Source: Lysobacter auxotrophicus (GTDB taxonomy: Bacteria; Pseudomonadota; Gammaproteobacteria; Xanthomonadales; Xanthomonadaceae). Taken from it: a DNA stretch of 64,000 bases. The DNA lies in contig NZ_AP027041.1 in NCBI RefSeq assembly GCF_027924565.1, positions 3,658,001 through 3,722,000 on the forward strand, read 5' to 3'. Shown piece by piece: positions 8,717 through 37,638 of this stretch. Under the pieces are notes generated by a model. That model ran no database searches. It worked only from the letters and a program-made list of their open reading frames with translations, and was not told the DNA's origin. Every line of letters begins with the position of its first letter. Positions within the stretch are counted from its first letter, which is position 1. Made by a program: the position numbers and the translations under genes.

Positions 8717-8793
8717 GGCTATGTAGCTCAGCCGGTTAGAGCACAGCACTCATAATGCTGGGGTCGGTGGTTCGAGTCCACCCATAGCCACCA
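8717..8793 (+). tRNA. tRNA-Met (CAT), elongator type
   Basis: The 77-nt sequence folds as a full tRNA: the acceptor GGCTATG pairs with CATAGCC (8783-8789), followed by A and an encoded CCA. The anticodon stem CAGCA/TGCTG encloses the loop CTCATAA with anticodon CAT at 8751-8753, and the T-loop is TTCGAGT. The G1-C pair and overall sequence resemble elongator tRNA-Met rather than initiator or tRNA-Ile2. It marks the left border of the accessory region. Confidence 0.95.
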
Positions 8794-8803
8794 TCCGCCG
8801 AGA

Positions 8804-8999
8804 TTCGTCACCCCGCAAGGGATTTGGACGACACATCTAACCCCGCGATTTCGCGGGGTTTTTTGTTTCTGGGTATCGCCAATAGGGCACGTTTGTCACC
8901 CCTCTGAGCATTTGGCTCACTTCGCCGTGTGCCGGGCCAAGCCGTCCTCTGGCGGGCAACGTAACCCTCCAGATTTGTCACCCCAGCAACGATTTAGAC
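8804..8999. repeat. Three 26-bp direct repeats between tRNA-Met and the recombinase trio
   Basis: Copies lie at 8804-8829, 8892-8917 and 8974-8999. They share TT(C/T)GTCACCCC, six variable bases, then (G/C)ATTT(G/A)G or AG plus two or three bases. Their spacing is 88 and 82 bp. The first begins 10 bp after the end of tRNA-Met. They are candidate binding sites for the recombinases encoded just downstream. Confidence 0.7.
8839..8866 (+). terminator. Intrinsic terminator of tRNA-Met
   Basis: A perfect 10-bp GC-rich stem (8839-8848 with 8851-8860) and a short loop are followed by a run of T residues. It lies 45 bp after the tRNA. Confidence 0.85.
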
Positions 9000-9065
9000 C
9001 GGGCTCGCTGCCCACCCGACTCGGGGTCATGGACTGGCACCAAGCGTGGCGAACGCGCCTGAGCG

Positions 9066-9106
9066 ATTGACGTAAAACCCTCCCGATTGACGTGCCGCAT
9101 TGACGT
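9066..9106. repeat. Three ATTGACGT short direct repeats
   Basis: Copies of ATTGACGT occur at 9066-9073, 9086-9093 and 9099-9106; the second and third extend to ATTGACGTGCCG. They lie about 100 bp before the first recombinase gene, so they could be operator or recombinase/accessory-factor sites. Confidence 0.6.
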
Positions 9107-9206
9107 GCCGGGGCAATGGCTCCCAAGCCTTCCCGCCAGAAATATTCCCAACACCCCCTCACGCAGGGGGGGTTAGCGTGATCGCACGTGCCGCCGGACG
9201 GCCAAC

Positions 9207-14321: not shown

Positions 14322-15377
14322 ATGAAAGTAGACGTTACGTGGAACATGGCCTTGCCCGCCTCAGGTTCGATCGATTGGCAGCCACAGCCTGCAACTTCCC
14401 TACCCTCGCTGACGCACCCGCCAATGACGCAGACCCCGACCTTTGAAGAGTTCTTCCACGAATGGCGAATGGAGAAATTGCCTGAGTGGCGCCGCCTGCA
14501 TATCCAGGGGGTGAATGACATTGCAAGTAAGCACCTGCTCCCCTGGTTCGGGGCAATGCAGCTGAGTCGGATCGGCCGCGCGGACGTCATGAAGTTCAGA
14601 GCCCACTTGGCGAAGCTGCCAGGCCACCGTGGGCGCACTTTGTCGGCGTCCCGCATCAACAAGATCCTCGTCATCCTTGGCCAGGCAATGGGAGAGGCGG
14701 CCAACCGCCATGGTTTCCAGAGCCCACTTGCAGGGATTAGGAAGCTTAAGTCTCAGAGGCCGGAGGTTCAGCCGTTTACTCTGGAAGAAGTGCGCCGCCT
14801 TTGCGACGAGGTGCGTCCGGACTACCGCGACTACCTTGTTTGTCGCTTCTTCACCGGAATGCGGACCGGCGAGATCAACGGGCTTAAGTGGGGCCGCGTG
14901 GATCTCGAGCGCAACGTCGTACTGGTTAGGGAAACGTTCTCGGCGGGAGAAACGGAGGAGAACGCAAAGAGCGAGCACTCCATTCGTGACATTCCGATGC
15001 TGCCTCCTGTCAGGGAGGTGTTGCTTGAGCGTCATGCCGTCGCACGACCTCTGGGTACGGACTATGTCTTCGCGTCTCCGCGCGGAGGCCCGATTGATGC
15101 AAAGAACTTCACCAATCGCGTTTTCTACCCGTTGCTTGATCGCCTCGGAATCGCCCGTCGCCGTCCTTACCAGACCCGGCACACGACTGCGACCGTCTTG
15201 CTGGCAGCCGGCGAGAACCCGGAATGGATCGCCCGATTCCTTGGCCATGTGAACACTGAGATGTTGTTCACTGTGTACTCGCGCTACGTTCCGAACTTGA
15301 CCCGGCGCGATGGCGCAGCGGTGTCAGCGTTGTTGGCGAGGAGTTCAACTGACCCCGAAAGTAAGGAGCAATTCTGA
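14322..15377 (+). CDS. Tyrosine recombinase / phage-type integrase
   Basis: The 351-residue protein is a normal-size integrase. It has an N-terminal SAM-like core-binding domain (FEEFFHEWRMEKLPEWRRLH, residues ~40-60), and a catalytic domain with GMRTGEINGLKWG (Arg I), QTRHTTATVLL (box II), RFLGH and the VYSRYVP Tyr. The Q in place of the usual H of box II is common in this integrase type. A later ATG at 14424 is possible as start. It is separate from the recombinase trio and probably belongs to a second element whose cargo lies to its right. Its stop overlaps a 45-residue ORF (ATGA). Confidence 0.85.
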   Translation: MKVDVTWNMALPASGSIDWQPQPATSLPSLTHPPMTQTPTFEEFFHEWRMEKLPEWRRLHIQGVNDIASKHLLPWFGAMQLSRIGRADVMKFRAHLAKLPGHRGRTLSASRINKILVILGQAMGEAANRHGFQSPLAGIRKLKSQRPEVQPFTLEEVRRLCDEVRPDYRDYLVCRFFTGMRTGEINGLKWGRVDLERNVVLVRETFSAGETEENAKSEHSIRDIPMLPPVREVLLERHAVARPLGTDYVFASPRGGPIDAKNFTNRVFYPLLDRLGIARRRPYQTRHTTATVLLAAGENPEWIARFLGHVNTEMLFTVYSRYVPNLTRRDGAAVSALLARSSTDPESKEQF

Positions 15378-15842: not shown

Positions 15843-16982
15843 ATGCTCCACGACGTTGAGTTTAGACAGGGCGCGAGGGAACAGAGATCTCTGCGAGAGT
15901 GGGAGCAGCGGCTGAACATCCCCGCCAGATCGCTGTTGCACCACGCGTCACAAGGGCGGCTGAAACTCCTTGTCCAGCCACCACCCAAGGCCGTGGAGTA
16001 CGCGCTGTTTCGCGTCGATGAAGACGCGATGCCTCTGACCCAAGGACCGTTAATCCGGCTACCCAAAGGCGAGCTCGTCGGTTTTGTCCCAGACGCCCCA
16101 ACTCTGGAAGCGCTTCTTAGCAGCAACCCCGTTGAAATCGAGTCCTTCGATACAGTCATCTGCAACAACCTGAGCTGGGATTGCTTCCGCGGACTTTTTC
16201 CGAGCACGTCCGGCCACACGTTCCGGCCTGTGGGCTGGCGTGCCGGGATATTCCGAATCCTTGATGGGTATGACGCCTCGGACGAGGCAAACGCGGCCGA
16301 TTTGCTTTCAATCGACGGCCGCAGCGTCATACAGGCCAGCTTCGTCGTTCGTCCCGATCACGTTTGCATCCGGGACGCCGATGCAAAAAGGTTCCTCGTC
16401 AACCTGACGTCCTACAGCTTCATTTCAGATCTTTTTGACGGCGGAACGTTCAAAGAAGAACTCCCGCCCTACATCTCCGGAAAGCTGAAAGAGATGATCG
16501 AGGCAAACCAGGTCCTTTGGCGCAAGCACGAGGGGCTGGGAACCGACGAGCGTGTCCGAAAAAGGGCGTTCACCGTCGAGTACTTGAACGATAAATTCCG
16601 TTCGTTCTGTAAAAAGGGCACAAATCCGAATTCCCTCGTAAAGTTTGCGGCTGATGCCTGCGATCCCTCCAGCTTGGCTAAATCGAGGAAGTTGGAGTCG
16701 TCAGTGACGCCGGACATGCTTGCTTTAGTCACTGCCGCCAAGTTGTTTTGGTCCCCCATCAACGTCCAGAACGACAAGCCTGAGACGCACCCAACTCGGG
16801 ACGAAATAGTTGCGTTCCTTCAGTTTATGGGCCTTACCGGAACGAATGCAGCGAGCCATGGCGTAACAATCATCCGGCCCGAGAAGGCGGCCGCCGGGAA
16901 AGTGGGCGAAAGACCTCCGCTTTTCAGTCCCCCCCTCAGACGTTCCCCTCTTATGAGGGCTGGAAGAGCGCCTTTGAAGTGA
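15843..16982 (+). CDS. Hypothetical island protein (379 aa)
   Basis: A soluble protein without a motif I recognise. The N-terminal segment REWEQRLNIPARSLLHHASQ resembles a short helix-turn-helix-like stretch; the middle contains FDTVICNNLSWDCFRGLFP and a later DVCIRDADAKRF-like segment. Because it precedes the AlpA-like gene with a 4-bp overlap (GTGA at 16979) and follows an integrase, it is probably an integrated-element gene expressed with the AlpA-like and DUF3987 genes. Function unknown. Confidence 0.55.
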   Translation: MLHDVEFRQGAREQRSLREWEQRLNIPARSLLHHASQGRLKLLVQPPPKAVEYALFRVDEDAMPLTQGPLIRLPKGELVGFVPDAPTLEALLSSNPVEIESFDTVICNNLSWDCFRGLFPSTSGHTFRPVGWRAGIFRILDGYDASDEANAADLLSIDGRSVIQASFVVRPDHVCIRDADAKRFLVNLTSYSFISDLFDGGTFKEELPPYISGKLKEMIEANQVLWRKHEGLGTDERVRKRAFTVEYLNDKFRSFCKKGTNPNSLVKFAADACDPSSLAKSRKLESSVTPDMLALVTAAKLFWSPINVQNDKPETHPTRDEIVAFLQFMGLTGTNAASHGVTIIRPEKAAAGKVGERPPLFSPPLRRSPLMRAGRAPLK

Positions 16983-17521
16983 AGAACGCGGCCTGCCTGA
17001 AGCAGGCGAACATGTCAAGCGTCACGTTCATAACGGACGACGACGGTCCGAGAACTTCCGACGATGGCCACGCTGCAATGTGCAGCGTCATCTACGAGGT
17101 TTATATGCGTCGCTCCGCCGTAACTGCCCTGGCACCTTACCGGGCCACCCCGCCGAAGTGCGGTGAATCCTCCCTCACTCGGGATGCGCACTACGAAAAC
17201 TTGCGCTGGCTGATCGAAGAACAGGTGCTTGCTCGCCTGGAGGCGATCTTCGAAGGGGTCAAAGCCTTGAAGTCCCGCGAATGCGGGCCTGCGCCGAATC
17301 AGGGCCACGCCATCCGATTGCCCGAAGTTCTGCAGATTCTGGGTATTTCCAAGAGCTGCCTCTACGACCGCCTCAACCCCAAGTCGGCCTCGTACGACCC
17401 GGCTATGCCGCGCCCTTTTAAGTTGGGCACGACCGAGCGTTCGCCGTCGGTGTGGTGGGACTCCTCCGTGATGGCGTACCTGACGTCTCGCGCCCAGCTG
17501 CATCACGGGAACGGAGGCTAA
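16979..17521 (+). CDS. AlpA-like helix-turn-helix regulator
   Basis: The C-terminal part contains an AlpA/MerR-type winged HTH: AIRLPEVLQILGISKSCLYD, then the beta wing region with PFKLG and the VWWDSSVMAYL segment. AlpA-type proteins control excision and integrase expression in P4-like elements. The N-terminal ~100 residues are an unrecognised extension. The start is taken as GTG at 16979 (overlap with the previous stop); an ATG at 17012 is an alternative. It precedes two more genes on the same strand. Confidence 0.7.
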   Translation: MKNAACLKQANMSSVTFITDDDGPRTSDDGHAAMCSVIYEVYMRRSAVTALAPYRATPPKCGESSLTRDAHYENLRWLIEEQVLARLEAIFEGVKALKSRECGPAPNQGHAIRLPEVLQILGISKSCLYDRLNPKSASYDPAMPRPFKLGTTERSPSVWWDSSVMAYLTSRAQLHHGNGG

Positions 17522-19699: not shown

Positions 19700-20920
19700 C
19701 TATTGCTGCCGTTCCAGCACCAAGCGGGTGAATGCGTCGACATCGAACAACCATTGCCGCTGCTCAGCGTTATAAGTGTCGTGCAGACCACGGGGCAGAA
19801 CTAGCTGCAGATGTTTGGCCTGCATTTCGCTGGTCTGGTTGACGCTGATTGCGGTTTCCAGAGTGAGCAGATGCTTTTCTTCGATCCGGTCGGCCTCAGC
19901 CAGCACTTGCCGCCAGCGATCCTTGCAGGTGCTCTTGACCGCGAGCATGGAAAGGCGCAAAGGATCAAATCCGCTGTCGTGGTATTCGTTCTGCCCCGGG
20001 AAGAGGAAATCAGGTTTGGATCTGTTTTCGGTAATGGCCGTGCGCTTGTACCGGATTCCCAGCGAGGCCAGGACAACCTCCATGTGATTTTCCAGGGCCA
20101 GACCGACCCGACTTTTGCGCCGGTTCTGCACAGACAGGGAGAACTGGATGAAGTCCTCGATCTGGTCGCCACTGAAACCCTGCGCCAGCCTCTCTCCAAT
20201 CAGATGGCGTTCCAGAGTGCGGAACAGGATTTCCTCGCGCTCCATCCAGGCCATGAGCGCCGCGTCCGGGTCGTCACGTGGATCGATCTCCGCGAGTGTC
20301 TCCCGTGCGTAAGCTGAGAAATCCAGCGTCTTGGGGAACCTTCCGCCGAAGCGCGCCAGCATGGTTTCGAGATAGCTTTCTTCCCGCTGCTCCACCTCGA
20401 TACCAATGCTTTCGAGAATGATGGTTGCTGCGAAACCAACCTTGTCGTTCTCGCCTTCGAGTTCGGAACGCACGGAAAAATTTAGAAGCCCCTCATCGTC
20501 GAAACCGAATAGCCATTCGATCTGGTTCACCGCGCTCGAACCGTTGGCGGCAATCACGACCAGCAGCCCCTCATCACGTCGCTTCGCTATAAGCAGCAGA
20601 TCCCCTTCACCGCCCTTCTCTGAAACTGTAGTGGTCGGAAAATAGAAGCGGTACTCGGCAGAACGGAGAGGCTGGTTCTCGCGGCTGTCGTACAGCGTCA
20701 GGAAAGCGTCCTCAATGATCGGTTCGTCACTCTGGTCGTCCAGGTAGATGAACCGCGCAGGCAATCGGGTACGCCCGGATGGGCGTCCCATGAAAGCCAG
20801 CATGTCCTTCGTGGCGTTGTATTCGTGCTGGTTCGATCGCGTCGTATCGGCCTCGACGGCCGACAATCGCTTGACCGCCACGCCTTCAAAATACTCTGAC
20901 AGGTAGCCGCGCTTCACCAC
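19700..20920 (-). CDS. EcoRII-type type II restriction endonuclease
   Basis: The C-terminal half of this 406-residue protein shows the EcoRII catalytic domain: NRRKSRVGLALENHMEVVL, KPDFLFPG, YHD and AVKSTCKDRWRQVL, including the Lys and Arg of the active site. The cognate methylase and Vsr next to it fit a CCWGG-like target. The first ~190 residues differ from the EcoRII effector-binding domain; that domain is instead encoded as a separate protein at 24372-24797. This is the last gene of the minus-strand operon and follows vsr without a gap. Confidence 0.85.
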   Translation of the reverse strand: MVKRGYLSEYFEGVAVKRLSAVEADTTRSNQHEYNATKDMLAFMGRPSGRTRLPARFIYLDDQSDEPIIEDAFLTLYDSRENQPLRSAEYRFYFPTTTVSEKGGEGDLLLIAKRRDEGLLVVIAANGSSAVNQIEWLFGFDDEGLLNFSVRSELEGENDKVGFAATIILESIGIEVEQREESYLETMLARFGGRFPKTLDFSAYARETLAEIDPRDDPDAALMAWMEREEILFRTLERHLIGERLAQGFSGDQIEDFIQFSLSVQNRRKSRVGLALENHMEVVLASLGIRYKRTAITENRSKPDFLFPGQNEYHDSGFDPLRLSMLAVKSTCKDRWRQVLAEADRIEEKHLLTLETAISVNQTSEMQAKHLQLVLPRGLHDTYNAEQRQWLFDVDAFTRLVLERQQ

Positions 20921-21355
20921 TTAGCTCTTTATCTCGCAGAGTTCATCATTGGACCGGAGCCATTCTGACAATCGCTGCACGGCGACGGCGGGATCCGTCC
21001 GAATGGCGCACTCCCAAACCGTACCCACGCGCCAGCCCGCCTCGAGCAGCGCAGCCAGATGCTTTTGGTCGTTCTCACGATTGCGGCCGATCTTGGTTCG
21101 CCAGAACTCCTGCCGGGTCCCAGGCTGTTTGAAAAGCCGGCAGTCATGGCCGTGCCAGAAACAGCCGTGCACGAACACTACCGCACCGTATCGCGGCAAC
21201 ACGACATCCGGGTTGCCCGGCAGCCTTCGTTGATGGAGCCTGTAGCGGAAGCCGAGCGCATGCAGCCCGCGGCGGACGGCAAGCTCCGGCTTCGTATCCT
21301 TGCCACGGATGCCGGACATCATCCGGCTGCGCGTGGCCTGGTCCACGATGTCCAT
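20921..21355 (-). CDS. vsr: Very short patch repair endonuclease Vsr
   Basis: Vsr nicks next to T:G mismatches that arise when 5-methylcytosine deaminates in Dcm-type sites. The 144-residue protein contains the family core (MSGIRGKDTKPELAVRRGLH, then NPDVVLPRYGAVVFVHGCFW and HGHDC) with the catalytic Asp and zinc-binding Cys/His residues. It lies 5 bp after the cytosine methylase and directly before the endonuclease. Confidence 0.95.
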   Translation of the reverse strand: MDIVDQATRSRMMSGIRGKDTKPELAVRRGLHALGFRYRLHQRRLPGNPDVVLPRYGAVVFVHGCFWHGHDCRLFKQPGTRQEFWRTKIGRNRENDQKHLAALLEAGWRVGTVWECAIRTDPAVAVQRLSEWLRSNDELCEIKS

Positions 21356-21360
21356 GCGGC

Positions 21361-22599
21361 TCAGGCGGCCAGCAGCGACTTCTGCCGGGCCAGCTCGGGA
21401 TCGATCAGTTCCATGATGCGCGGCTTCATCACACGGGCAACCTCGCGCATGACCGGCATGACCACGCTGTTGCCGAACTGCTTGTAGGCCTGCGTGTCGC
21501 TGACCGGAATGATGAAATCTTCAGGGAAGCCCATCAGACGGGCGCACTCGCGCGGTGTCAGCCGACGTGGGCGCTTGCGTGGACCTTGGGACACGAGGAT
21601 CTCCGAGCCGTCCTTGTAGTAGCGGGCCGACAGCGTGCGCGACACGCTGTCCGGGCCGACCAGCCCGAACCCGAAACCGTTGCCGGCGGCGCGGTGCTTC
21701 TCCGCGTAGGCCTGCAAATAGGCCCAGAGCTTCGGGGTGAGCGTGTAGCGGTCGTCGACCTTGGCCTTCGGCCCGACGGTGTAATGCCCCTCCGGTTCCT
21801 CGCTTCCGTCCTGCGGGTGCAGGATGCCCTTCATCCTCGGCTTGTGCTCCGGCAAATACATGTCGTCGAAGGTGAAATCGGTCTTGTCGCGGAAGCCGAC
21901 GATCAGGATGCGCTCGCGGTGCTGCGGCACGAAGTGCGCGCCATCCACAACCTTGCAGGTGATGTGGTAGCCAAGCTCCTCCTCCAGGACCTTCTTGATG
22001 ACCCGGAAGGTGTTGCCTTTGTCGTGGCTGACGAGATTCTTGACGTTCTCCAGCAGGAACGCCGCCGGACGCTTGGCTGCAATGATGCGAGCCACGTCGA
22101 AGAAGAGGGTGCCTTGGGTCTCGTCGGCAAATCCGTGGGCGCGGCCCAGCGCGTTCTTCTTTGATACGCCAGCGATGCTGAAAGGCTGGCAGGGGAAGCC
22201 AGCTAGCAGCACGTCATGAGCCGGAATGTCGCGCTCGTCCACCTTGGTGATATCGCCCTCCAGGGCGTGGGCCGACTCCGGGAAGTTGGCCAGGTAGGTC
22301 TTCTGCGCGTAGGAGTTCCACTCGCTGGTGAACATGCAGCGCCCGCCGTGAGCCTCGAAGGCCATGCGGATGCCCCCGATACCTGCAAACAGGTCAATGA
22401 AGCGGAAGTCGCAGTCTCCCGACTCATTGGCCAAGGGCAACAGGCGCTGGCGGATCGCGTCAGCAGCATATGGCGGCGGGTCGGTCTCCCCGACCTCCCA
22501 GCGCCGCAGGGTTCGGGTCGTGATGCCTAAGGCCTGGGCCAACTCTGTCTGGTTGTAGCGACCCCGGAGGGCAGTCAGAAGCTGGCGGGCGTCTTGCAT
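21361..22599 (-). CDS. DNA cytosine-5 methyltransferase, Dcm/EcoRII type with N-terminal HTH
   Basis: The 412-residue enzyme has motif I FAGIGG (71-76), the catalytic PCQPFS with C137, ENV (184-186) and the [11 protein letters not shown] motif. Residues 5-40 form an Xre-like HTH ([20 protein letters not shown]), as in several EcoRII-type methylases that repress their own gene. Its pairing with Vsr and the EcoRII-type endonuclease suggests C5 methylation in a CCWGG-like site. A gap of about 90 bp separates it from the sigma-like gene upstream on the same strand, so an internal promoter is possible. Confidence 0.92.
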
Positions 22600-22691
22600 G
22601 GGCGACCTCGGCGGCGGGACGGAATGCGGACAGTATGTCCGATTTTCATCTCACACGCTGCGAATCAGCCCGCCCGCTGGGGTAAGGGCAG

Positions 22692-24368
22692 TCAGTGGAC
22701 GCTTCGGAAACCCCGGAGCCTTATGAGACCAGGCGCAGAGGACTGAGAGATGCTCGAAGGGACGACTTGGGGCCGAGCCTTCCTTCCCGACCGCCGGCCG
22801 CCGGGGTACTCGTCCAGCACAGCCCACAGGATTTCAGTTCCAACGCCGCTGGATGGAAGCGGGATGCCCCACTTCAGAGAAGTCTGTACCTGGAAGCTGC
22901 CGAAGCTTCCGTGGCTGCTGGCGTAGAAATCAGCAGCCTCTCGCCAGTAGCGAAGGAAATTTGGCTGAAGCAAGGCTTTGGCCGTTGAGAAATCCCCATC
23001 CACAAGCTGGTCGTTGAGAGCGGTCAACATGATCGACTCTTCACGTTTGACCGACGGACCATAGGTGCCGAGCGCGAGGGCAGTCTGCTCCAGCGTGGGC
23101 CGTGATGCCCTGAGCACAGCTATCCGCATTCTGAAAATGTCGGCAGCACGCGCGGTAATGCTGTTCGCACGAATGATTTTCTCGACGATTAGAGGCAATG
23201 CCTCTACAAATTCCTCGGCCGAATCCGGGTCATGCTCCGGAAGAATCTCCAGATTCATCGCCTTCGCGTAGGCGAAAAAATCGATCGATCCATCGATGGA
23301 AATGGATGCTCTTAGAAGAGAAGCCACCTTCCGAAGATTTTTTCCGGAGCGTGTATGAGGTGACGGGCCCGCGCCGCTCCTGAAGGAATCCCAGAGGTCG
23401 CCCAAGGTCGTCAGGCCGTGGTTCGCCAGATCCGTAGCTGGTTCGCCCAGTGGAATCGAATGAAGCGGAACCGACCGGAGATGCTGGCTCAGCGGCAAGA
23501 AGAGGCCAGGGTCGAGCTTCATCTGGGCACGCAAGACCTCCGGAATGGAAGCCTTGCTGGTAAGGATGGTCAAGATAAGCGGCAAATGGGGAAAGAGGAG
23601 TTCTGCCGGGACATCCCATGCGGTCTGAAGTCCGTCCAGGAAATCGGGAAAATTGATCTCCTCCTTTGCGCCAAACCACTCGGATGCACGCTTCCAATAG
23701 CCTGTAAAGCTTGTCCGCAGCGAGATGCCAAGCTTGCGTTGCCGACCGAGTACGAAGGCCGAAAGTAGCAACTGGATGAGCTTTGCTTCCTTTTGCCGGA
23801 TTCTTTCGCGTGTTACCTGGACAGGAGACGCGGTCGCCACCTGCTCCAGCGTCATGCGCTCTTCCGGGAACCGGAGGATCCGCCCAGTAAGGATCAACCT
23901 GTCCGTCTCGGATCCTCGTGTCTCAAGGATCGCTTTGATGACTTCAGGGATTGACGAAACAAATTCCTCTCCATTGGTCACATCGCACTTTGGAAAAAGA
24001 GGACCAAAGGGCGACTGTGGCGCAACGGGGCCAACGAAAGGCTCATCCGTGCTGCTCGCCGAATCTGGGCCTTCGCCAACTGGAGAGATCGGCGGAAGCC
24101 CATTGAACTCACTCCAGTCAACAAAGCCATAGTCATCAACCATGAGCGAAAGCGCATCCAGCCTTCGCTGAATGACATCGGCGTCATCACGCCGAAGCCC
24201 CACGATCATCCTGAGTGTGCGAGGCTCGATTTCAAGCCTTCCAAGCAGCGAACCAAGCGTTCCGAGTCCTACGCTCTGCAGGACCTCTGCCAGATCGCCA
24301 ATCCCAATCTTGGACACAGGGAGGGAATGAAGCGAATTATCCAGCCGATAGAAGAGCGAATGACTCAT
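22692..24368 (-). CDS. Protein with duplicated sigma region 4-like and alpha-CTD-like domains
   Basis: The 558-residue protein is built from two similar halves. Each begins with a helix-hairpin-helix segment like the RNA polymerase alpha C-terminal domain (VGLGTLGSLL near 33-42; HGLTTLGDL in the second half). Each then has EEFV(S/E) followed by a sigma-region-4-like helix-turn-helix: MTLEQVATASPVQVTRERIR in the first half and a more degenerate PTLEQTALALGTYGPSVKRE in the second. Both copies end with a (G/R)YW(K/R)(R/E)A(S/A)(E/D)(W/F) motif. This suggests DNA binding, perhaps recognition of DNA by the defence operon or a transcription role. Function is inference. It is 3 bp downstream of the EcoRII-N gene. 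Confidence 0.65.
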   Translation of the reverse strand: MSHSLFYRLDNSLHSLPVSKIGIGDLAEVLQSVGLGTLGSLLGRLEIEPRTLRMIVGLRRDDADVIQRRLDALSLMVDDYGFVDWSEFNGLPPISPVGEGPDSASSTDEPFVGPVAPQSPFGPLFPKCDVTNGEEFVSSIPEVIKAILETRGSETDRLILTGRILRFPEERMTLEQVATASPVQVTRERIRQKEAKLIQLLLSAFVLGRQRKLGISLRTSFTGYWKRASEWFGAKEEINFPDFLDGLQTAWDVPAELLFPHLPLILTILTSKASIPEVLRAQMKLDPGLFLPLSQHLRSVPLHSIPLGEPATDLANHGLTTLGDLWDSFRSGAGPSPHTRSGKNLRKVASLLRASISIDGSIDFFAYAKAMNLEILPEHDPDSAEEFVEALPLIVEKIIRANSITARAADIFRMRIAVLRASRPTLEQTALALGTYGPSVKREESIMLTALNDQLVDGDFSTAKALLQPNFLRYWREAADFYASSHGSFGSFQVQTSLKWGIPLPSSGVGTEILWAVLDEYPGGRRSGRKARPQVVPSSISQSSAPGLIRLRGFRSVH

Positions 24369-24371
24369 GAC

Positions 24372-24797
24372 TCAATGCACCCGGCGCCATCCCTGAAGAA
24401 CAATCACACCTGGCGGCGAGTCTTCGGCAGGTAACTCTTTTCGCTTCAGAGAAATACGGTATTTGCCGACTTCGTTTGTCGTGGAAAAGAGGAGACTGTC
24501 CCCGGCTTTCGCTCCCATCCTCTTGAAGAATTTCGTCAGATACGTAAGGCGATACTCGTTCCGGGTCCCATGCTCGGCATGGAGACGGTTGTTGTAGTAG
24601 ACATAGCGAAATTTCCACTCATCCCCGAACTCGTCGATGCAAATGATCCAGGCATCCGGGTTTAATATGGCTGGATCCAGCACCGGAAAGAACGCCATCA
24701 ACTCCTTGTCAGCCTTTGGAACAAGGATGCCCGCCTGGTGGCTGCCAGTTGCGCCCACATCGTTTGCGCTGAGTGTTTTGGCGAAAGTTGCTTTCAT
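24372..24797 (-). CDS. Stand-alone EcoRII N-terminal (B3-like) DNA-binding protein
   Basis: The 141-residue product resembles only the effector-binding domain of EcoRII: KTLSANDVGATGSHQAGILV aligns with the EcoRII segment KRLSANDTGATGGHQVGLYI, and WKFRYVYYNNR and LTYLTKFF follow the same order. In EcoRII this domain reads CCWGG. Here it is encoded apart from the nuclease, within the SNF2/HNH/MORC block. It overlaps the SNF2 gene by 4 bp. Confidence 0.75.
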   Translation of the reverse strand: MKATFAKTLSANDVGATGSHQAGILVPKADKELMAFFPVLDPAILNPDAWIICIDEFGDEWKFRYVYYNNRLHAEHGTRNEYRLTYLTKFFKRMGAKAGDSLLFSTTNEVGKYRISLKRKELPAEDSPPGVIVLQGWRRVH

Positions 24798-26623
24798 TTG
24801 CTGACAGGAGAGATGGAAAGTGCGCGACTGAGGTCAGCTGCATCGTCGGCACTGGTCGGAACTGCCTCGGCTCCCAGTTCACGCCTCATCTGAGATCTGT
24901 CCATCATTACCTGCTCGACGGTATCGGCATAGTAGAGGTGATAGACGGTGACTGGATTTTTCTGGCCTCGCCGATGTGCCCGGGCGCTGGCCTGAGCTTC
25001 GAGTGCAGGGTTCCACACCTGGGTGTAGTGGATGACCACGGTTGCAGCGGTAATGTTGAGCCCGGCGCCAGCCGCCCTGGGATTGAGAACTAGAACTGCG
25101 TCCCCGTCGTGTTTCTCGAATTCGTCAACGATTCGCTGTCGATCTTCCTGGGGAGTGGAGCCATTTATGGCGCCCCAGTAGACCGATGCAGGAAGATGCA
25201 TAGCGGACCGGACAATGGGACCGCATGCGTTGAAGTTGGCGAATATCAAAACTTTTCGGTTGTTTGCAAATGACTCCATAACCAGCTCGATAGTGCGCAA
25301 CAGTTTCGGCGTCATTCGCACTGAGCCGGAGCGGCCTCGAAGACTTACAAGCTCCTCCCATTCATCCGACTCCATTCCCCCGCTCACAAGCGCCGGATGC
25401 GCACAAAAAATCTGGAGCTGCCCTGTTGCGACCAATGAACCTGCTTTCGGATACTTGTGGAGGGTCTCTAGCCGCACAGACTCATATTCGCTGGCCAAGT
25501 CAGCATCGAGTTCCAGCGGAACAAGAACATCGGTCCTTTCCGGCAAATCCTGGGCTACGTCTTTCACGCGCCGCTTGAGGATTATTGGCGATGTAATTCT
25601 CGCCAGGGTGCGAGCCGAATCGTCGGTGTCGGAGTAAGAGGCCTCGAAAACGTCCCGTGTACCGAGCAGTCCCGGAATCGCAATATCGGCTAGCGACCAC
25701 AAGTCGAGCAACCTCGTTTCAACTGGCGTACCCGTGACCGGAATGGTGCGTTTCCTGGGAATGTCACTGACGGACTGTCGCCGCTGCGAATCAGGATTCT
25801 TCAGGGCTTGCGCCTCATCGCAAATCAGCCATGACCACTCGACGGCCTTAAACAGGACTAGGTCGTTGACGACCGTGTCGTAGGTAGTGATTACGATCTG
25901 CGCACCAAGCAGGTGGCGCGGGAGCGTGCCCCTTCCGCTGCCGCGATGGATCATCACGGTCAGCGATGGAGAAAATTTTCCGAATTCGCGAACCCAGTTG
26001 GCGATCAGCGTAGTCGGACAAATGACCAATGCAGGAGAGGTTGAATCTGGCGGGTCAAGCAGGAGAAGAGAAATGATCTGCAAGGTCTTTCCCAAGCCCA
26101 TCTCGTCGGCAAGGATGACCCCACCCGTTTTCGACAGGGCATTCCGCATCCATGAAACGCCCTTGTTCTGATATGGATAAAGATTGGCTTGCAGGTTCGG
26201 AACAACTAGAGGCGCGGTCTCACGATCGGCCGCGTCATTGGCGGAAACCAGAACGCTTTCGTCAAGTTCGACCTGGATCTCATCTTTGGCCGTTTGCTGC
26301 AGCTTGAGAACTTCAGGAAACGAAAGCGATTCTGAGTTTGCTCCCGCCAGCACTCTATTGATGACAGGCTGGACATCTTTGGGTAACGGATAGATCAGCC
26401 CATTCCCACATACCCAATTGAATTCGGGCGATGGCGCGGTAAGGAACTGGGTACCGGCGCGCCGCACAAGGCGTGCGCCCAAATTTACGACATAGCCATT
26501 GTTCTCCCGCACGATGGAGAGGACCGGGTCGAGTACGGTAGTGAAAAGGATCCAGCCATCAGGCGGATCCTTTTCAAGAACCGAAAATTCGCGTGGCCAT
26601 GTTTTCGGATCAGGAGCGAGCAT
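24794..26623 (-). CDS. SNF2-family DNA helicase/translocase
   Basis: The 609-residue protein has a full SNF2 motor: Walker A ILADEMGLGKT (~170-180), the DEAQ box (269-272), VTGTPVETRLLDLWSL (motif III) and the C-terminal ARAHRRGQ motif VI. The N-terminal ~145 residues are an unrecognised domain. In bacteria such ATPases move along DNA in defence systems. It overlaps both the HNH gene (14 bp) and the EcoRII-N gene (4 bp), so it is co-translated with them. Confidence 0.92.
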   Translation of the reverse strand: MLAPDPKTWPREFSVLEKDPPDGWILFTTVLDPVLSIVRENNGYVVNLGARLVRRAGTQFLTAPSPEFNWVCGNGLIYPLPKDVQPVINRVLAGANSESLSFPEVLKLQQTAKDEIQVELDESVLVSANDAADRETAPLVVPNLQANLYPYQNKGVSWMRNALSKTGGVILADEMGLGKTLQIISLLLLDPPDSTSPALVICPTTLIANWVREFGKFSPSLTVMIHRGSGRGTLPRHLLGAQIVITTYDTVVNDLVLFKAVEWSWLICDEAQALKNPDSQRRQSVSDIPRKRTIPVTGTPVETRLLDLWSLADIAIPGLLGTRDVFEASYSDTDDSARTLARITSPIILKRRVKDVAQDLPERTDVLVPLELDADLASEYESVRLETLHKYPKAGSLVATGQLQIFCAHPALVSGGMESDEWEELVSLRGRSGSVRMTPKLLRTIELVMESFANNRKVLIFANFNACGPIVRSAMHLPASVYWGAINGSTPQEDRQRIVDEFEKHDGDAVLVLNPRAAGAGLNITAATVVIHYTQVWNPALEAQASARAHRRGQKNPVTVYHLYYADTVEQVMMDRSQMRRELGAEAVPTSADDAADLSRALSISPVSK

Positions 26624-27425
26624 CGACCAGCAGTTCCTTCAGCTCATCAGGCGAAAAGGGGACGGGCTTCCTGGTGTGTATCAGCCGATGGCAGTTAGGA
26701 CACAGGGGGATCAAATCGGAGACAGGATCGTATTGCCTCGGCATTTCGAGCAGGGAAACCGGCTCGAGGTGGTGGACCTCGATGATGTTTCCGCTTTCGC
26801 CAAACGCCTCCAGCGGGCTGAACCCGCAGGCGGCACACTTGTTGCCATGAATGGATAGACAGAGATAGCGGTTTCGGCGGCTTCTTTCGCGCTTCCGTAT
26901 CAGCGTCTCTGTCACTTCACCTTCGATGTCCGGGACTTTGTCAGTCCACTCGTCATAGCCGATGAGTTCGGCCATCGCGGCCATCAAGGGCACCATGATG
27001 GTCTTTGCAGTGTCTGCAACCGCATTGGCACTGTCGTGCTCATCAACATTTCTGACGGTTACTTCGATATTGAAGTCACCGCCGCTGACCACCCAGTCAT
27101 CCAAGCCGTAGCCCGGATTGATTCTCAGGTCATGGGATCGGGCAATTTGCTTCAGCAAGCCACGTGCGGTGGCCTGCTGCTCGTAGTTCGCTGCTTGCAT
27201 TTGCCGGATGCACGGCGTGGAAAAGTCTCCGAATTTCAGGAGAACCAGATGGCGCCGGAGCCCGGAGGGTCTGACAGTGACAATCGGGCCATTGTTTGGC
27301 TCCAGATCGGAGAAATGAGCACGCAGTCCAGTTCTCAAGCCGGCCCTGTCCAGCTTGACTTCAATTCCAGCTCCAATTCCTAGTTCGAGAACCTGCTTGA
27401 GCAGGTTCACCCTGTCCCCTGTCAC
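26610..27425 (-). CDS. HNH endonuclease (McrA-like C-terminus)
   Basis: The last ~75 residues form an HNH module with zinc-binding Cys pairs C197/C200 and C242/C245, the catalytic HH at 218-219 (IIEVHHLEPVSLL) and H246/H250. The first ~180 residues are an unrecognised domain, likely for DNA or partner binding. The GTG start overlaps the MORC gene stop (GTGA). As the only obvious nuclease among the four upstream genes, it is the best candidate to cut DNA for the MORC/SNF2 machine. Confidence 0.88.
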   Translation of the reverse strand: MTGDRVNLLKQVLELGIGAGIEVKLDRAGLRTGLRAHFSDLEPNNGPIVTVRPSGLRRHLVLLKFGDFSTPCIRQMQAANYEQQATARGLLKQIARSHDLRINPGYGLDDWVVSGGDFNIEVTVRNVDEHDSANAVADTAKTIMVPLMAAMAELIGYDEWTDKVPDIEGEVTETLIRKRERSRRNRYLCLSIHGNKCAACGFSPLEAFGESGNIIEVHHLEPVSLLEMPRQYDPVSDLIPLCPNCHRLIHTRKPVPFSPDELKELLVDARS

Positions 27426-29077
27426 TGCTCAGCACCGGCTTGGGCAGGCAACAACTCCTCGATGTCATCCTCGCTCGCCGCCGGAGTGTCTCTCAGAAGC
27501 TTTCGCAGGTTCGACGAAATTTCATCTCGCAGGTCCTCGAATACCGCAGCCAGCTCCGGATTTGAGTTGTTGATTTCCGCGGCGGCAAAAGCCCAGAGGA
27601 GATAGTCGATGCCGTCAACTGTGTAGCCTTGCGAACCGGCCCGGAGGTACACCTTCTGGAAGAAGTCGTGATGCTTGTTGATTCGAACACTCACATGATG
27701 CCCGGACTGGTTCGGACTCCTTACGGCAGGCTCCCAAAGCAGGCCACTGGTCATGTCATCAACGGTCTCGACGTAAATCGACTTCACGTTGACGTTGTTT
27801 TCGACAGGAATATGAAGCTTGATGCCCTGACCAAGCCGGTTGTTGACGGTCGCAGTCTGAGTGGCGATGTCAACAGCCGATACTGAGGCCGTCTGGGTAT
27901 TTGATGCGGCGATGGTCTTGTTGGCGCTCTGATGATTGATAACCGTTTCCGCCGCAATGGTCCTTTCCTTGCGGCGATAGCGATTGTTGGCTTCATTCCT
28001 GAAAGGAGTGAGGATCTTGTCCAGCACTTCTTCCAAAGCTGGGTCAAACAGGACCTTCGACTTCTTCACGTCAATCTTGAAGGCCTCATCCAGCAGGTGG
28101 TCGAAATCGAATTCGACCCGGATGAGGGAGAAGTGGGGTTCGAGGTCGAACAGGCCGAGCCAGCCGCCCCAGTGGATCACTCGTCCTTCGCGGTATACGT
28201 AAAACCCCTGAGCCCGATTGGAGATCTTCGCAATCTTGTTTTCCTCATCGGTAAGGGTTTTCCGATGAGGAAGAATCCACGCCGCCAGCTTGGCTTCGTG
28301 GACTGATCCGTCTTCAACTTGGATTTTCAGGGCCCGCGCATGGGGCGGCAAAACCTGCTCGGACTTCTCTGGATAAAAAGGATTCCATGCCTGAACGGCC
28401 GTGCCATCGAGAGTGATCGAAACGTTCCGTTCACGCTTGTCCGTGGGATCAATAAAGCGATGAAACACCAGAGCGAGGTGATCGCGGAGCTTATTGACGC
28501 GTGTCCGGATCGCATTCTTTTCCTTGGTGCCGCCCGCTTCTTCGTAGTCCTTGTCGAGTAGCCTGTCGCACTTCGACCAGATGACCAGCGTGCCCTTGTC
28601 GCCGCACAGTTCGGAAAAATAAAAGTCGTCCGTTGGAGTGATTGGCTCCTTCAGCATTTCCCACTTGTTCTCCAACTCCACATGCTCCAGGTCCCAAGCA
28701 AGCTTTTCGAGCGGAGCCGAAGCGTCCTTGCGCGTAATGATCGTAAATTTCTTGCCGATGGAACTGGAGGCAGTTTTCAGGCCGAGTCCGAACTTGCCCA
28801 GACTTTTCAGATTTTGCCGTTTGGGAGCGCCATAGCGCATGGCATGAAACAGTTCGGATGAACTCATGCCAGAACCGTTGTCGCCGAAATAGACGAACTT
28901 CCGCCCGTCTTTTTCCAAGGTGACCCTGATGTTCACCTCGGTTGCGCCAGCTGCAATCGAATTGTCGACAATGTCGGCCGCTGCAGTGTTGAAGTCGTAG
29001 CCGGTATCCCTGAGCCCGTAGATCAGGCGTGACGGATCCGGAAGATTGGTCAAGTCCTGTGCTTCCGCGTGGCTCAT
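27422..29077 (-). CDS. MORC-type GHKL ATPase
   Basis: The 551-residue protein has a GHKL ATP-binding fold: the N box ADIVDNSIAAGA (residues ~35-46), DNGSGM (66-71) and GKFGLGLKTAS (94-104). After it comes an S5-like region and an Arg/Lys-rich C-terminal part. Prokaryotic MORC/MutL-like ATPases are known from restriction-modification neighbourhoods (Iyer, Abhiman and Aravind, 2008). The ATG at 29077 is chosen for its GGGGGAG ribosome binding site; a 22-residue longer form has none. It is the first gene of the eight-gene operon. Confidence 0.88.
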   Translation of the reverse strand: MSHAEAQDLTNLPDPSRLIYGLRDTGYDFNTAAADIVDNSIAAGATEVNIRVTLEKDGRKFVYFGDNGSGMSSSELFHAMRYGAPKRQNLKSLGKFGLGLKTASSSIGKKFTIITRKDASAPLEKLAWDLEHVELENKWEMLKEPITPTDDFYFSELCGDKGTLVIWSKCDRLLDKDYEEAGGTKEKNAIRTRVNKLRDHLALVFHRFIDPTDKRERNVSITLDGTAVQAWNPFYPEKSEQVLPPHARALKIQVEDGSVHEAKLAAWILPHRKTLTDEENKIAKISNRAQGFYVYREGRVIHWGGWLGLFDLEPHFSLIRVEFDFDHLLDEAFKIDVKKSKVLFDPALEEVLDKILTPFRNEANNRYRRKERTIAAETVINHQSANKTIAASNTQTASVSAVDIATQTATVNNRLGQGIKLHIPVENNVNVKSIYVETVDDMTSGLLWEPAVRSPNQSGHHVSVRINKHHDFFQKVYLRAGSQGYTVDGIDYLLWAFAAAEINNSNPELAAVFEDLRDEISSNLRKLLRDTPAASEDDIEELLPAQAGAEQ

Positions 29078-29825: not shown

Positions 29826-30518
29826 ATGGAATCCCTGCACTTCGGCATCCGCAGCGGCAAGCGCGGTACTGCGACCGACCACCTGAACTACATCACCCGC
29901 GAAGGGTCCTACGCGGCCCGCAATGATCTGGTGGCAACGGGTCGCGGCAACATGCCGTCATTCGCGCTGGACCAGCCAATGCTGCTCTGGCAGGCATCCG
30001 ACCGGAACGAGCGAAAGAACGGATCGACCTTCCGCTCATTCACGATTTCCCTGCCCAACGTCCTGACGATCGAACAACTGACCGAACTGGCATGGCGGGA
30101 AGCCCGACGGCTGGCCGGGCCCAAGCCCTTCCAGTTCGCGCTGCACATGTCGCGCTCCTCGCTGCGGGACGAGCTCCACCCCCACGTGCATATCGTGATT
30201 TGCGACCGTGTACCGGACGGGATCGAGCGTTCACCAGAGCATATGTTCAAGCGTTACAACCGGAAGCATCCGGAAAAAGGCGGTCGCCGCAAGGACAGCG
30301 GCGGCAAGACACCGCAGGCGCTGCACAGTCATTTGACTGCGCAGCGCAAGGCTGCCGCCGAGGAGATCAACGCCGCCCTGGCCAAGTACGGACACGACCC
30401 CCGGGTCGACCATCGGACCCTACGGGAACGTGGCATCCACCGGGCACCTGAGCGCTATCTGGGTCCAGCACGGATCCGCACAATGACGACGGAAGAACGC
30501 GCGTCCTACGCTCGGTAG
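29826..30518 (+). CDS. Small MobA/MobL-like relaxase
   Basis: The 230-residue protein resembles the nicking domain of MobA/MobL-type relaxases: an N-terminal segment with the HLNYITREGSY motif and the catalytic metal-binding HPHVHIVICDR (HxH), followed by RYNRKHPEKGG. Full relaxases are often longer and carry a helicase or primase; this is only the relaxase part. An 'aagagagaa' ribosome binding site precedes the ATG. No coupling protein or mating-pair genes are in the window, so the element would be mobilisable rather than self-transmissible. Confidence 0.8.
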   Translation: MESLHFGIRSGKRGTATDHLNYITREGSYAARNDLVATGRGNMPSFALDQPMLLWQASDRNERKNGSTFRSFTISLPNVLTIEQLTELAWREARRLAGPKPFQFALHMSRSSLRDELHPHVHIVICDRVPDGIERSPEHMFKRYNRKHPEKGGRRKDSGGKTPQALHSHLTAQRKAAAEEINAALAKYGHDPRVDHRTLRERGIHRAPERYLGPARIRTMTTEERASYAR

Positions 30519-31648: not shown

Positions 31649-31768
31649 CTATCCGTTGCCGATGCGGGCGACCTTGTCCTGCAGCCGGTCACTGAGCCTG
31701 TCCGATCGGTCCTTCGCGTCGGTGGCCTGGGTCGTGGTCCCTGCTTCGGGATAGAACTCCTCTGTCAC
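31649..31768 (-). CDS. Small coupled ORF (39 aa, hypothetical)
   Basis: A GTG at 31768 overlaps the TGA stop of the next gene upstream (GTGA) and the frame runs 39 codons to TAG. The product is polar and helical, ending DRLSDRLQDKVARIGNG. The same 4-bp overlap pattern is used elsewhere in the window, which gives it modest support. Confidence 0.4.
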   Translation of the reverse strand: MTEEFYPEAGTTTQATDAKDRSDRLSDRLQDKVARIGNG

Positions 31769-32547
31769 CGCCGCACATCCTCATCCAGCTCCTCGAATGC
31801 GCCATTGGCGAAACCGCGCCTGGCCGCTTCATCCAGTGCCTCCTGGTCAAACCCGCTGCCCTTGCGCTGCGCGTCCTTTGCGTGGGCCTCGGCAATCGCC
31901 TGCTCCAACGTCATGCCGGTTCGCACCACCAGATCGACGTAGTAGATCGCCGCGCGATGGCTCATTGCCGTGCTTTTCCCCCGGAGCTTGAGCTCCAGTG
32001 GCATGCACGCCAGCCGCCCTCCGGAGACCGCGCTGAAGTACTGCAACCTGGCAGCGAGGGTCCGGATCGTGTTGAACGACGTGGTCCGCAACACGAAACT
32101 GCCCAAGGCATCCTCCTCGCCGTCGCCGACCACCGTGTTGAACCGGGCGTAGGCCTTGCACTCGCCGCCAGCGAATCGGCACAGGTCCGGCCCGAGGCAT
32201 GGCAGGGTTTCGATGCCCTCCTCTCCACCGCGTCGCCGGCAGCTTTCGCCGTTGCCTACGCACATCGGCCGGCCGGTGCTGCGGTCGAAGAGGGAGTAGT
32301 CGGCCCGCAGATTCAGCGATGGATCGTTGAACAGTAGGCGGACGGGGATGGACCGGAGCTTTCCGGCGCCATCCCGGCGCAGGAGCTCGTCCAGCGGGTG
32401 CAGCACCCAGCCATCCCGGTTCTGCATCTGGCTGGTCAGGGTGAACTGGTCGTCCTTCTCCGGCAGCCGCTTGCCGTTGCGCTCCACCACGCGCCCAATG
32501 GAAATCCGCCCGACCACCGGCGGCGTAATCGAAAGACCTTTCAGCAT
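31765..32547 (-). CDS. Plasmid/ICE 'hydrolase or metal-binding' protein
   Basis: The 260-residue protein contains a cysteine-rich centre: CVGNGESCRRRG, then LPCLGPDLCRFAGGECKAYA, likely a zinc or Fe-S site, then a SFNTIRTLAARLQYFSA helix. It belongs to a family annotated as hydrolase or metal-binding on plasmids and integrative elements, usually next to YqaJ, DUF932 and RadC genes as here. Its function is not known, though recombination directionality factor-like proteins share the general layout. It overlaps the YqaJ gene by 7 bp. Confidence 0.75.
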   Translation of the reverse strand: MLKGLSITPPVVGRISIGRVVERNGKRLPEKDDQFTLTSQMQNRDGWVLHPLDELLRRDGAGKLRSIPVRLLFNDPSLNLRADYSLFDRSTGRPMCVGNGESCRRRGGEEGIETLPCLGPDLCRFAGGECKAYARFNTVVGDGEEDALGSFVLRTTSFNTIRTLAARLQYFSAVSGGRLACMPLELKLRGKSTAMSHRAAIYYVDLVVRTGMTLEQAIAEAHAKDAQRKGSGFDQEALDEAARRGFANGAFEELDEDVRR

Positions 32548-33536
32548 GTCGCACTCCTTTCCGTTGATTCGACCTGGCGAGACAGCAGGAACCGGCGCGA
32601 GCCGGTAGTGGGCACGGTGTATCGGGCCGCAATGTCGGGGTGGTTTTCGGCCAGCTTTTTCGTATCGAGACGCGATCCGTCCTTGGCCCGCTTGAACGTC
32701 ACCAGGCCGTTAGCGAACGCCGCCTTGGAGGCGTCCCCCATGGCCTGCTGGATGAGCTGCTTCAGGCGCTCGGCTTCTCGCTCCTTGGCGGCGAGATCCC
32801 CCTCCAATTCCGCCAATGCATCGAACGCTTTGCCGAGCTCCACATCCGCGGTGAAGTCCACGGTAGTGTCGTTGCCTCGGTACAGGTGGCGTAGAGCACG
32901 GGCGGCGGACTCACTGCCGTCCGCAGGCGGCGGCGTGTCAGACTCGACGTAGCTCCAGAAATGACTCTCCAACACCATCAAGCGGGCGATGATTTCGTCG
33001 TCCCGCTCGATACGGTGGACCTCCAACTTCTGACCACAGAGCAGGACAGCGACGTCCGCCGCCGCCTTACCGGTCACCGCAAGCTGGTGGTGCACCTGGA
33101 GCTGGATGTACTCCGGCACCCCGTCTTTCCAGAGCCTCGAGCCGAACTCTCCGGCCGTCTTGCACTCCAGGATCTGCACATCGGGGCTTCCGACTACTTC
33201 CCGGTCGATGTTGGCCAACATGAAGGGCAGCGTCGGATGCTGGAGCACGGCGTTGAGCTTCCTGACCTTCCGGTTGGTCTTCTGCTGGTAGGCCACCGCC
33301 ACATACGGCTCCAGCAAGGTGCCCCAGAACCGGGGGTCGTCCATGCCCTGATGTTCGCCCGATGACACCTCCCGGCCGGTCTTTTCCAGCCACAGTTCCA
33401 GTTGGCTCTTGTACGGGTTCAAGCCGATGGCCGCGGCGGCGTCGGAACTGCCGATTCCGCCCTTGCGGACTTCCAGCCACTGCTCACGATCAAGCGCCCG
33501 GGTGTCAGCCAGGCGTAATGCACTTTGGGTCTTCAT
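32541..33536 (-). CDS. YqaJ-type viral recombinase / exonuclease
   Basis: The 331-residue protein has the lambda exonuclease-like PD-(D/E)XK core: GIGSSDAAAAIGLNPYKS, GTLLEPYVA, the ILECKTA motif (E-x-K) and YIQLQVHHQLAVTG. Such 5'-3' exonucleases feed single-strand annealing recombination on mobile elements. C-terminal residues ~230-290 are a coiled coil. It is upstream of the metal-binding protein in the same operon. Confidence 0.88.
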   Translation of the reverse strand: MKTQSALRLADTRALDREQWLEVRKGGIGSSDAAAAIGLNPYKSQLELWLEKTGREVSSGEHQGMDDPRFWGTLLEPYVAVAYQQKTNRKVRKLNAVLQHPTLPFMLANIDREVVGSPDVQILECKTAGEFGSRLWKDGVPEYIQLQVHHQLAVTGKAAADVAVLLCGQKLEVHRIERDDEIIARLMVLESHFWSYVESDTPPPADGSESAARALRHLYRGNDTTVDFTADVELGKAFDALAELEGDLAAKEREAERLKQLIQQAMGDASKAAFANGLVTFKRAKDGSRLDTKKLAENHPDIAARYTVPTTGSRRFLLSRQVESTERSATC

Positions 33537-33554
33537 CTCAATCCTCCAAAAGCA

Positions 33555-33580
33555 GACGCCCGCCCGTGGGGCCGGGCGTC
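33555..33580 (-). other. Hairpin between yqaJ-like and DUF932 genes
   Basis: Arms 33555-33562 and 33573-33580 (GACGCCCG and its complement) form an 8-bp stem. It may reduce transcript reading through from DUF932 into the YqaJ gene. Confidence 0.4.
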
Positions 33581-33604
33581 ATGGCGCGTTGATCAGTGGG
33601 GACT

Positions 33605-34561: not shown

Positions 34562-34591
34562 GTCGACTTCCTCGAATGGCGGCATAAACGC

Positions 34592-37609: not shown

Positions 37610-37638
37610 GACCCTTACAGGCCATGAGAGCCTGTCCC

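Follow-up and report, generated by a model that had tools for sequence, protein, structure and literature searches.

A recurrent gene cassette of MORC, HNH, SNF2 and EcoRII-N with a Dcm-type methylase in Lysobacter auxotrophicus: a candidate ATP-dependent restriction-modification system

The stretch of the Lysobacter auxotrophicus genome analysed here (contig NZ_AP027041.1, positions 3,658,001 to 3,722,000; the whole 64,000 nucleotides are called the window, and coordinates are counted within it) contains at 19700-29077 a run of eight genes encoding a MORC ATPase, an HNH nuclease, a SNF2-family translocase, a stand-alone EcoRII-N protein, a sigma-like protein, a Dcm-type cytosine methyltransferase, a Vsr mismatch endonuclease and an EcoRII-type nuclease (Table 1). 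All eight frames are open and lie on the minus strand, as had been claimed in the original prediction made from the letters of the DNA, and its identification of the parts proved to be correct. Its MORC start at 29077, an ATG located after GGGGGAG, is also preferable to position 29143, where the longest open reading frame (ORF) begins. The “overlaps or tiny gaps” it described exist at six junctions (−14 to +5), but not between the genes of the sigma-like protein and Dcm, which are 92 bp apart; from MORC to the EcoRII nuclease the distances are −4, −14, −4, +3, +92, +5 and 0 bases. No second match to the window Dcm was found at E ≤ 0.001 in the genome itself (one contig of 4,155,451 bases). Since 40 other loci also combine Dcm with the four genes for MORC, HNH, SNF2 and EcoRII-N, which we call the core, this gene grouping is not a matter of chance.

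Table 1. Features of the window, with the eight-gene run first and the surrounding elements below
Feature	Position	Strand	Support or remark
MORC (GHKL + S5) ATPase, prokaryotic, 551 aa	27422-29077	-	PF13589 9.8e-27
HNH nuclease, 271 aa	26610-27425	-	PF01844 1.8e-5
SNF2-family SF2 translocase/helicase, 609 aa	24794-26623	-	PF00176 5.9e-55, PF00271 6e-16
Stand-alone EcoRII-N (B3-like), 141 aa, tail VIVLQGWRRVH	24372-24797	-	PF09217 9.2e-17
Sigma-like protein, 558 aa, tail LIRLRGFRSVH	22692-24368	-	sequence profiles
Operator-like palindrome GGACA-N3-TGTCC, GGACATACTGTCC on minus strand	22628-22640		29-41 bp upstream of dcm
Dcm-type C5-cytosine methyltransferase, 412 aa, N-terminal helix-turn-helix (HTH)	21361-22599	-	PF00145 1.6e-84, HTH_3 1.1e-5
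Vsr mismatch endonuclease, 144 aa	20921-21355	-	TIGR00632 146.5 bits (cutoff 97.85)
EcoRII-type nuclease, 406 aa	19700-20920	-	PF09019 1.9e-67
tRNA-Met	8717-8793		
Tyrosine integrases	14322-15377, 45153-46379; weak one 10945-13578		
AlpA regulator	16979-17521		
MobA/MobL-domain protein (230 aa), Gp3-like and DUF932 proteins	among 29826-30518, 31765-34585		

The MORC-specific S5 motif GhXhhpXXRhl (Iyer et al. 2008) is present in 31 of the 32 aligned rows, including that of the window, the exception being locus L030 from the Z1/AIPR clade (compared loci are given L numbers), and the best match of the window MORC among PDB profiles is human MORC2 (4.7e-11). The HNH protein carries a signature, E-x-HH ... 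C..CH...H, found in 27 of 28 rows, and matches the HNH domain of EcoKMcrA (6ghc, 5.5e-7) in its HNH part only. Its AlphaFold2 (AF2) model has a mean predicted local distance difference test score (pLDDT) of 87 with a well modelled N-terminal domain, for which the fold search gave no convincing match (the sole one at E ≤ 0.001 was 6ghc, with a template modelling score of 0.19). In the SNF2 protein the helicase core was recognised, and the domain search gave no fused nuclease. The stand-alone EcoRII-N protein matches EcoRII (PDB 3hqf, 9.7e-8), and the residues invariant in 25 rows (K7, L9, N12, D13, G15 and H20; T78, R79, E81 and R83) fall in two stretches that are conserved in the N-terminal domain of EcoRII. 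Dcm, which has its catalytic motifs, matches PDB 3lx6 (2.3e-107), recognition region included, and the catalytic part of the EcoRII-type nuclease matches EcoRII-C (3hqg, 2.9e-39). The N-terminal domain of this nuclease, without a Pfam EcoRII-N match, was aligned with EcoRII-N by hhalign (91.6%, E 8.2e-7), which suggests a distantly B3-like domain of related fold. An EcoRII-C nuclease, the N-domain of which may be B3-like, and a Dcm-type methylase are what the window has in common with the type IIE enzyme EcoRII, but in contrast to it the window possesses a second, free-standing EcoRII-N, which belongs to the MORC block.

Related loci were taken from genome contigs (21 loci), plasmids, even draws of genomes and viral contigs, and 61 of them entered the comparison with the eight proteins of the window, which left aside the six plasmid sets lacking MORC (L062-L067) and short duplicate extracts of places already covered; these rows are not independent and include several near-identical strains. 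All four core genes were found in 41 of the 61 loci, while the other 20 include more distant MORCs as well as contig fragments. Locus L030 combines Dcm-MORC-Z1-PD-(D/E)XK-AIPR with Vsr, and L029, where HNH and EcoRII-N were not found, looks degenerate. Dcm accompanies the core in 40 of 41 cases, with the closest core gene at most 2,480 bp away; L080, the one case without it, ends in an inverted piece of MORC and HNH where the contig stops. Vsr is present in 39, with none in L019 and L080. The core genes follow the order MORC-HNH-SNF2-EcoRII-N in 27 loci and SNF2-EcoRII-N-MORC-HNH in 13, the remaining one being the inverted contig end. Beside two of the MORC cassettes other genes attracted attention: an AIPR protein (L015:11011-13122), and a Cap4-type nuclease next to a protein that weakly matches SMC_N (L017:8824-11658).

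The EcoRII nuclease behaves differently from Dcm. Besides the window, its full-length form is present in 8 of the 41 core loci, seven of which were registered by BLAST (L020, L025, L027, L028, L092-L094) and one more (L001, 471 aa) by Pfam; in L026 it is truncated. In 25 of the 40 Dcm-bearing core cassettes it is absent and, with the greater length of some sigma-like ORFs taken into account, the gaps between Dcm, Vsr, core and sigma-like genes do not exceed 600 bp. Consequences for the original prediction, which named MORC homologues occurring mostly apart from the Dcm-EcoRII set as an argument against itself, are therefore twofold: they almost never lack Dcm, but usually do lack EcoRII. In L014 a nuclease of the MvaI/BcnI family (8925-10253, PF15515 2.1e-39) lies between Dcm and Vsr; EcoRII and MvaI both act on CCWGG. 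The N-domain of the EcoRII nuclease was also found as a free protein inside the cassette of L077 (7139-7543) and just after that of L018 (15386-15838), where it is possibly another recognition adaptor.

Profile searches in even draws of genomes gave the same gene combination. The MORC profile matched 9 of 369 genomes of the class at 1e-20, two of them near full-length (the genome under study and G180), while the others comprise a contig-end fragment (G076) and six matches to the N-terminal part or less. The EcoRII-N profile matched 11 of 398 genomes of the phylum at 1e-10, two as a stand-alone protein (the genome under study and G662) and nine within ORFs of 245-435 aa, mostly of EcoRII-nuclease size. 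Both G180 and G662 have the four core genes, Dcm and Vsr, so that two genomes of the even draws (loci L051 and L052) repeat this gene set, and the 4.1-kb contig of G076 carries MORC, HNH, EcoRII nuclease and EcoRII-N. In four of the six weaker class matches a diverged Dcm-like match was found in all four and Vsr in three, with no other core genes.

Recognition signature GNGFG...SARY[YHF]KDG[SA]E, the same as in 3lx6, is present in all 40 core-linked Dcms and also in six MORC-free plasmid sets. Dcm of E. coli acts on CCWGG (PMC4924334). The idea of the original prediction that one methylase licenses both halves of the operon is probably right, as 40 of the 41 core loci have a Dcm no further than 2.5 kb away, in each case with this signature. 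Pairwise distances, which are not independent of each other, mutually correlate at 0.79-0.98 for MORC, HNH, SNF2, EcoRII-N and the sigma-like protein (0.94-0.98 for the latter versus the core), but at 0.49-0.68 for Dcm and Vsr versus four core proteins, so that one can assume a tight machine with an exchangeable but ever-present Dcm. In the Dcm tree at least five changes of the label “MORC with EcoRII” are required; 139 of 500 shuffles gave a value as low, i.e. there is no extra clustering, while sets with MORC but without EcoRII and MORC-free sets are clustered. A methylase that is exchanged and yet always kept is the pattern expected of a required licence.

The sigma-like protein is built of two repeats of a unit resembling the C-terminal domain of RNA polymerase alpha subunit (alpha-CTD) followed by sigma region 4. 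Its internal duplication was detected by hhalign (99.9%, E 1.4e-34), and its profile matches are sigma region 4 (1e-7) and RNA polymerase alpha subunit 3gfk (3.7e-5). As the fold search with the predicted model gave no match at E ≤ 0.001, this reading rests on sequence profiles. The gene was found in 13 of the 41 core loci, all of the MORC-HNH-SNF2-EcoRII-N order, and in partial locus L090, where SNF2-EcoRII-N-sigma-like-Dcm-Vsr reproduces the order of the window. In all 14 cases it directly follows EcoRII-N, and its frame opens either at the stop codon of EcoRII-N or shortly ahead of it. Most of these 14 loci were reached via MORC, while L023 and L090 were also reached by the search with the sigma-like protein itself, which elsewhere gave one plasmid record (that of L023) and at least one viral contig (L090). 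No relatives were registered at E ≤ 1e-12 in 397 further genomes, among the matches listed and with two candidates scored per genome. A 964-aa version with extra N-terminal sequence and weak helix-hairpin-helix matches is encoded in L021 (8701-11595).

Both EcoRII-N (...LQGWRRVH) and the sigma-like protein (...LRGFRSVH) end with the tail LxG[W/F]RxxH. A regular expression describing it matched 32 of 7,478 ORF ends in the window, L001-L021 and L023-L030, and 5 of 3,705 in L069-L090, and all 37 matches among 11,183 ORF ends belong to EcoRII-N or sigma-like proteins; as the expression was written after the tails had been seen, this demonstrates exclusiveness and is no prediction. It misses EcoRII-N of L007 and L015, the sigma-like proteins of L009, L010, L012, L023 and L090, and EcoRII-N of the SNF2-EcoRII-N-MORC-HNH order, where only a W[RK]-like ending is kept. 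All 13 aligned sigma-like tails have the residues L, G, F and H unchanged, and so does that of L090. Conservation rises from 0.26 in the linker to 0.76 in the tail of EcoRII-N (21 close rows) and from 0.37 to 0.88, the highest value among the stretches measured, in the sigma-like protein, the last 36 residues of which have AF2 pLDDT below 50. Recent gene conversion is not indicated, given that the last 36 nucleotides of the two window genes share 20 identical bases; an ancient copying event may have occurred. A widespread tag was rejected as well: the DNA pattern for G[W/F]RRVH-stop occurs in 4 of 398 genomes versus 8 for the reversed control, and of these four one is EcoRII-N of the window, two end frames of 79 and 36 codons and the fourth has TGG instead of a stop codon.

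A linear docking peptide common to the two proteins would be the simplest reading of the tail. We tentatively suggest that EcoRII-N and the alpha-CTD/sigma-4-like protein may dock on one partner via LxG[W/F]RxxH, so that exchangeable adaptors would direct the MORC-SNF2-HNH motor, in one case to the Dcm site and in the other to promoter-like or transcribing DNA. Alternatively, the sigma-like protein may be a transcription factor of the cassette and no adaptor at all. This is rather unlikely, even if its domains resemble alpha-CTD and sigma region 4 and the MZA system carries sigma-like MzaA, the model of which is weakly matched in region 4 by 8 of 13 members: sigma region 2 was not detected by domain and profile searches, making classical promoter melting unlikely, the C-terminal tail is common to EcoRII-N, and the distances of the sigma-like protein track those of the core.

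Regulation of the methylase gene may be separate. The 13-mer in the 92-bp gap belongs to the type GGACA-N3-TGTCC, which was found twice in 1.12 Mb of loci (65 sequences), in the window and before dcm of L001; these two palindromes are identical, while their Dcms share about 66-67% of residues. Conservation of the palindrome before dcm in all loci is thereby ruled out. The background in the genome under study is 7 sites per 4.16 Mb, and the significance of the palindrome comes from its position and spacer identity rather than from the count. Its presence in the gap means that the operon may consist of two transcription units; a simple promoter scan of the minus strand gave no sigma-70-like site. 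The regulatory site of Ecl18kI/SsoII is GGACAAATTGTCCT and is bound by the N-terminal region of the methylase (PMC3695355). An N-terminal HTH and GGACA-N3-TGTCC before the methylase gene are common to these methylases and the window Dcm, which differs in being located at the same-strand end of an eight-gene run and having a putative operator.

The original view of the gene combination as unusual is not supported: the core type was already given by Iyer et al. (2008, PMC2292703), who predicted MORC operons with a SWI2/SNF2 helicase, an HNH or EcoRII-like nuclease, VP1/RAV (B3), a cytosine methylase and Vsr. The MORC S5 motif, SNF2 and the nuclease, B3, methylase and Vsr genes of the window all agree with their group-2 MORC operon, and Erythrobacter and Roseovarius species are among the figure abbreviations. 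The word “sigma” is absent from the text of that paper, figures aside, and neither the shared tail nor the operator occurs in its section and passages considered here. Among the open-licence papers found by search, judged by titles and the beginnings of abstracts, there was no recognisable experimental study of the cassette, no account of the sigma-like protein or the tail, and no mention of the operator or of an optional EcoRII nuclease. Thus the core cassette is of a known kind, as a prediction, and the window is a recurrent, extended form of a known restriction-modification kind, in which the sigma-like gene and the shared tail are apparently new.

The nearest biochemical analogue is CglI/NgoAVII, where a B3 domain, an SF2 ATPase and a C5 methylase were demonstrated to form an ATP-dependent restriction system (PMC4267653), and where ATP hydrolysis needs unmethylated sites and the B3-bearing nuclease bound to the SF2 ATPase (PMC4267653, PMC5737866). 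The window shares with it a C5 methylase, a B3-like recognition domain and an SF2 ATPase. Cleavage of unmethylated sites is coupled there to ATP hydrolysis, a trait that the system of the window would share. The PLD nuclease fused to B3 and the Z1-containing ATPase were not found in the eight window proteins, which have B3 as a protein of its own, an HNH nuclease instead of PLD, and MORC in addition. The MZA system (MzaABCDE) has in common with the window a sigma-like protein and a MORC/MutL-like ATPase, but none of the eight proteins contains Z1 or AIPR domains of the MzaC-E type, and orthology to MzaB and MzaA was rejected since the scores (186/850 and 24/800 bits) are far below the NCBIfam cutoffs. 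A putative defence system of Z1, PD-(D/E)XK and methylase, one type of which is MORC-associated and was likened to MZA, was described in 2022 (PMC9523054); its core genes differ from those of the window.

Gene content and order, co-occurrence, domains, the shared tail and the palindrome belong to the sequence itself, and with a probability of roughly 0.6 they reflect a restriction-modification system that depends on ATP and has two arms of restriction governed by a single mark. In it, Dcm would methylate CCWGG-type sites on the host DNA and Vsr would repair T:G mismatches originating from deaminated 5-methylcytosine. The stand-alone EcoRII-N, acting as a recognition subunit, would read unmethylated CCWGG on foreign DNA and by means of its C-terminal tail recruit MORC as a clamp ATPase together with the SNF2 translocase and the HNH nuclease, and these would then cut or process this DNA; the sigma-like protein, having the same tail, may serve the MORC-SNF2-HNH machine as an alternative or helper adaptor. 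The EcoRII nuclease, losable or swappable, would independently cut the same unmethylated sites, and Dcm probably represses the dcm-vsr-EcoRII unit through the palindrome. Because most loci keep Dcm without a nearby EcoRII nuclease, the MORC block is probably the constant and principal arm of restriction, with the EcoRII nuclease as an exchangeable second one.

Several circumstances weaken this two-arm scheme. The functions (specificity, methylation, recruitment, cleavage and repression) are all deduced from sequence; methylases of CCWGG and CCNGG may not be told apart by the Dcm signature, recognition of unmethylated CCWGG by EcoRII-N is carried over from EcoRII, and what the tail does is conjecture. 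The HNH domain resembles that of EcoKMcrA, a modification-dependent enzyme. In the 14 sigma-carrying rows the correlation with sigma-like distances reaches 0.88 for Dcm and 0.93 for Vsr, so the contrast with the core is not sharp there. The palindrome is confined to two loci, while about one chance match is expected per 1.12 Mb by base count. The loci, finally, were found mostly via MORC similarity and are redundant (e.g. L005/L006, L009/L023, L025/L028), and non-EcoRII nuclease families were checked in few of them, leaving room for nucleases beyond the cassette.

Other divisions of labour between the two halves of the operon are improbable. According to the original prediction, the MORC block is a back-up handling DNA that escapes the EcoRII nuclease as the main arm. 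Both arms do share the methylase and probably the site, and the window as well as 8 of 41 core loci combine the core with a full-length EcoRII, but since most MORC cores have Dcm and no nearby EcoRII nuclease, with Dcm kept in 40 of 41, general dependence of this kind is impossible. Attack of the HNH/MORC block on foreign-marked DNA in a modification-dependent (type IV-like) manner, complementing EcoRII, has similarly poor prospects: EcoKMcrA is the best solved relative of the HNH domain, but the match is confined to this domain, the presumed recognition subunit is EcoRII-N, and a block attacking 5-methylcytosine is hardly expected beside Dcm in 40 of 41 loci. Least of all do we expect two independent modules, a type II Dcm-Vsr-EcoRII set next to a MORC block that has a target of its own, as the MORC-free plasmid Dcm-EcoRII sets L062-L067 (adjacent Vsr annotated in 4 of 6), the looser histories of Dcm and Vsr and the separate regulation suggested by the palindrome are opposed by the closeness of Dcm to the core (40 of 41 loci, in 25 of which the cassette holds no nuclease) and by the membership of EcoRII-N in the family of EcoRII's own recognition domain.

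The two-arm system is probably part of a mobile defence island, because tRNA-Met, tyrosine-integrase, AlpA and MobA/MobL genes are found in the same window (Table 1). Measured in 1-kb steps, GC content is 0.54-0.64 over the operon, and the opening 7 kb of the window have 0.68-0.71. A search for the element ends gave none: the tRNA-Met region has no direct repeat of at least 14 bp elsewhere in the window, and attachment sites were not found. On the minus strand the window also has genes of a subtilase (35087-37609) and an AAA ATPase (37639-38631), which match the PADLOC models of IetS (best 3.1e-32) and IetA (best 7.8e-68), so that 35087-38631 probably encodes an anti-phage system of the IetAS type.

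Prokaryotic MORC proteins are related to chromatin silencers of eukaryotes; since 2008 their role in restriction operons has had the status of a prediction. If the proposed two-arm scheme is true, Dcm together with four core genes should restrict unmethylated CCWGG DNA even without a classical nuclease. The shared tail provides a concrete handle for finding the docking partner and suggests that DNA-binding parts similar to those of RNA polymerase may have been taken over into a restriction machine to act as its adaptor.

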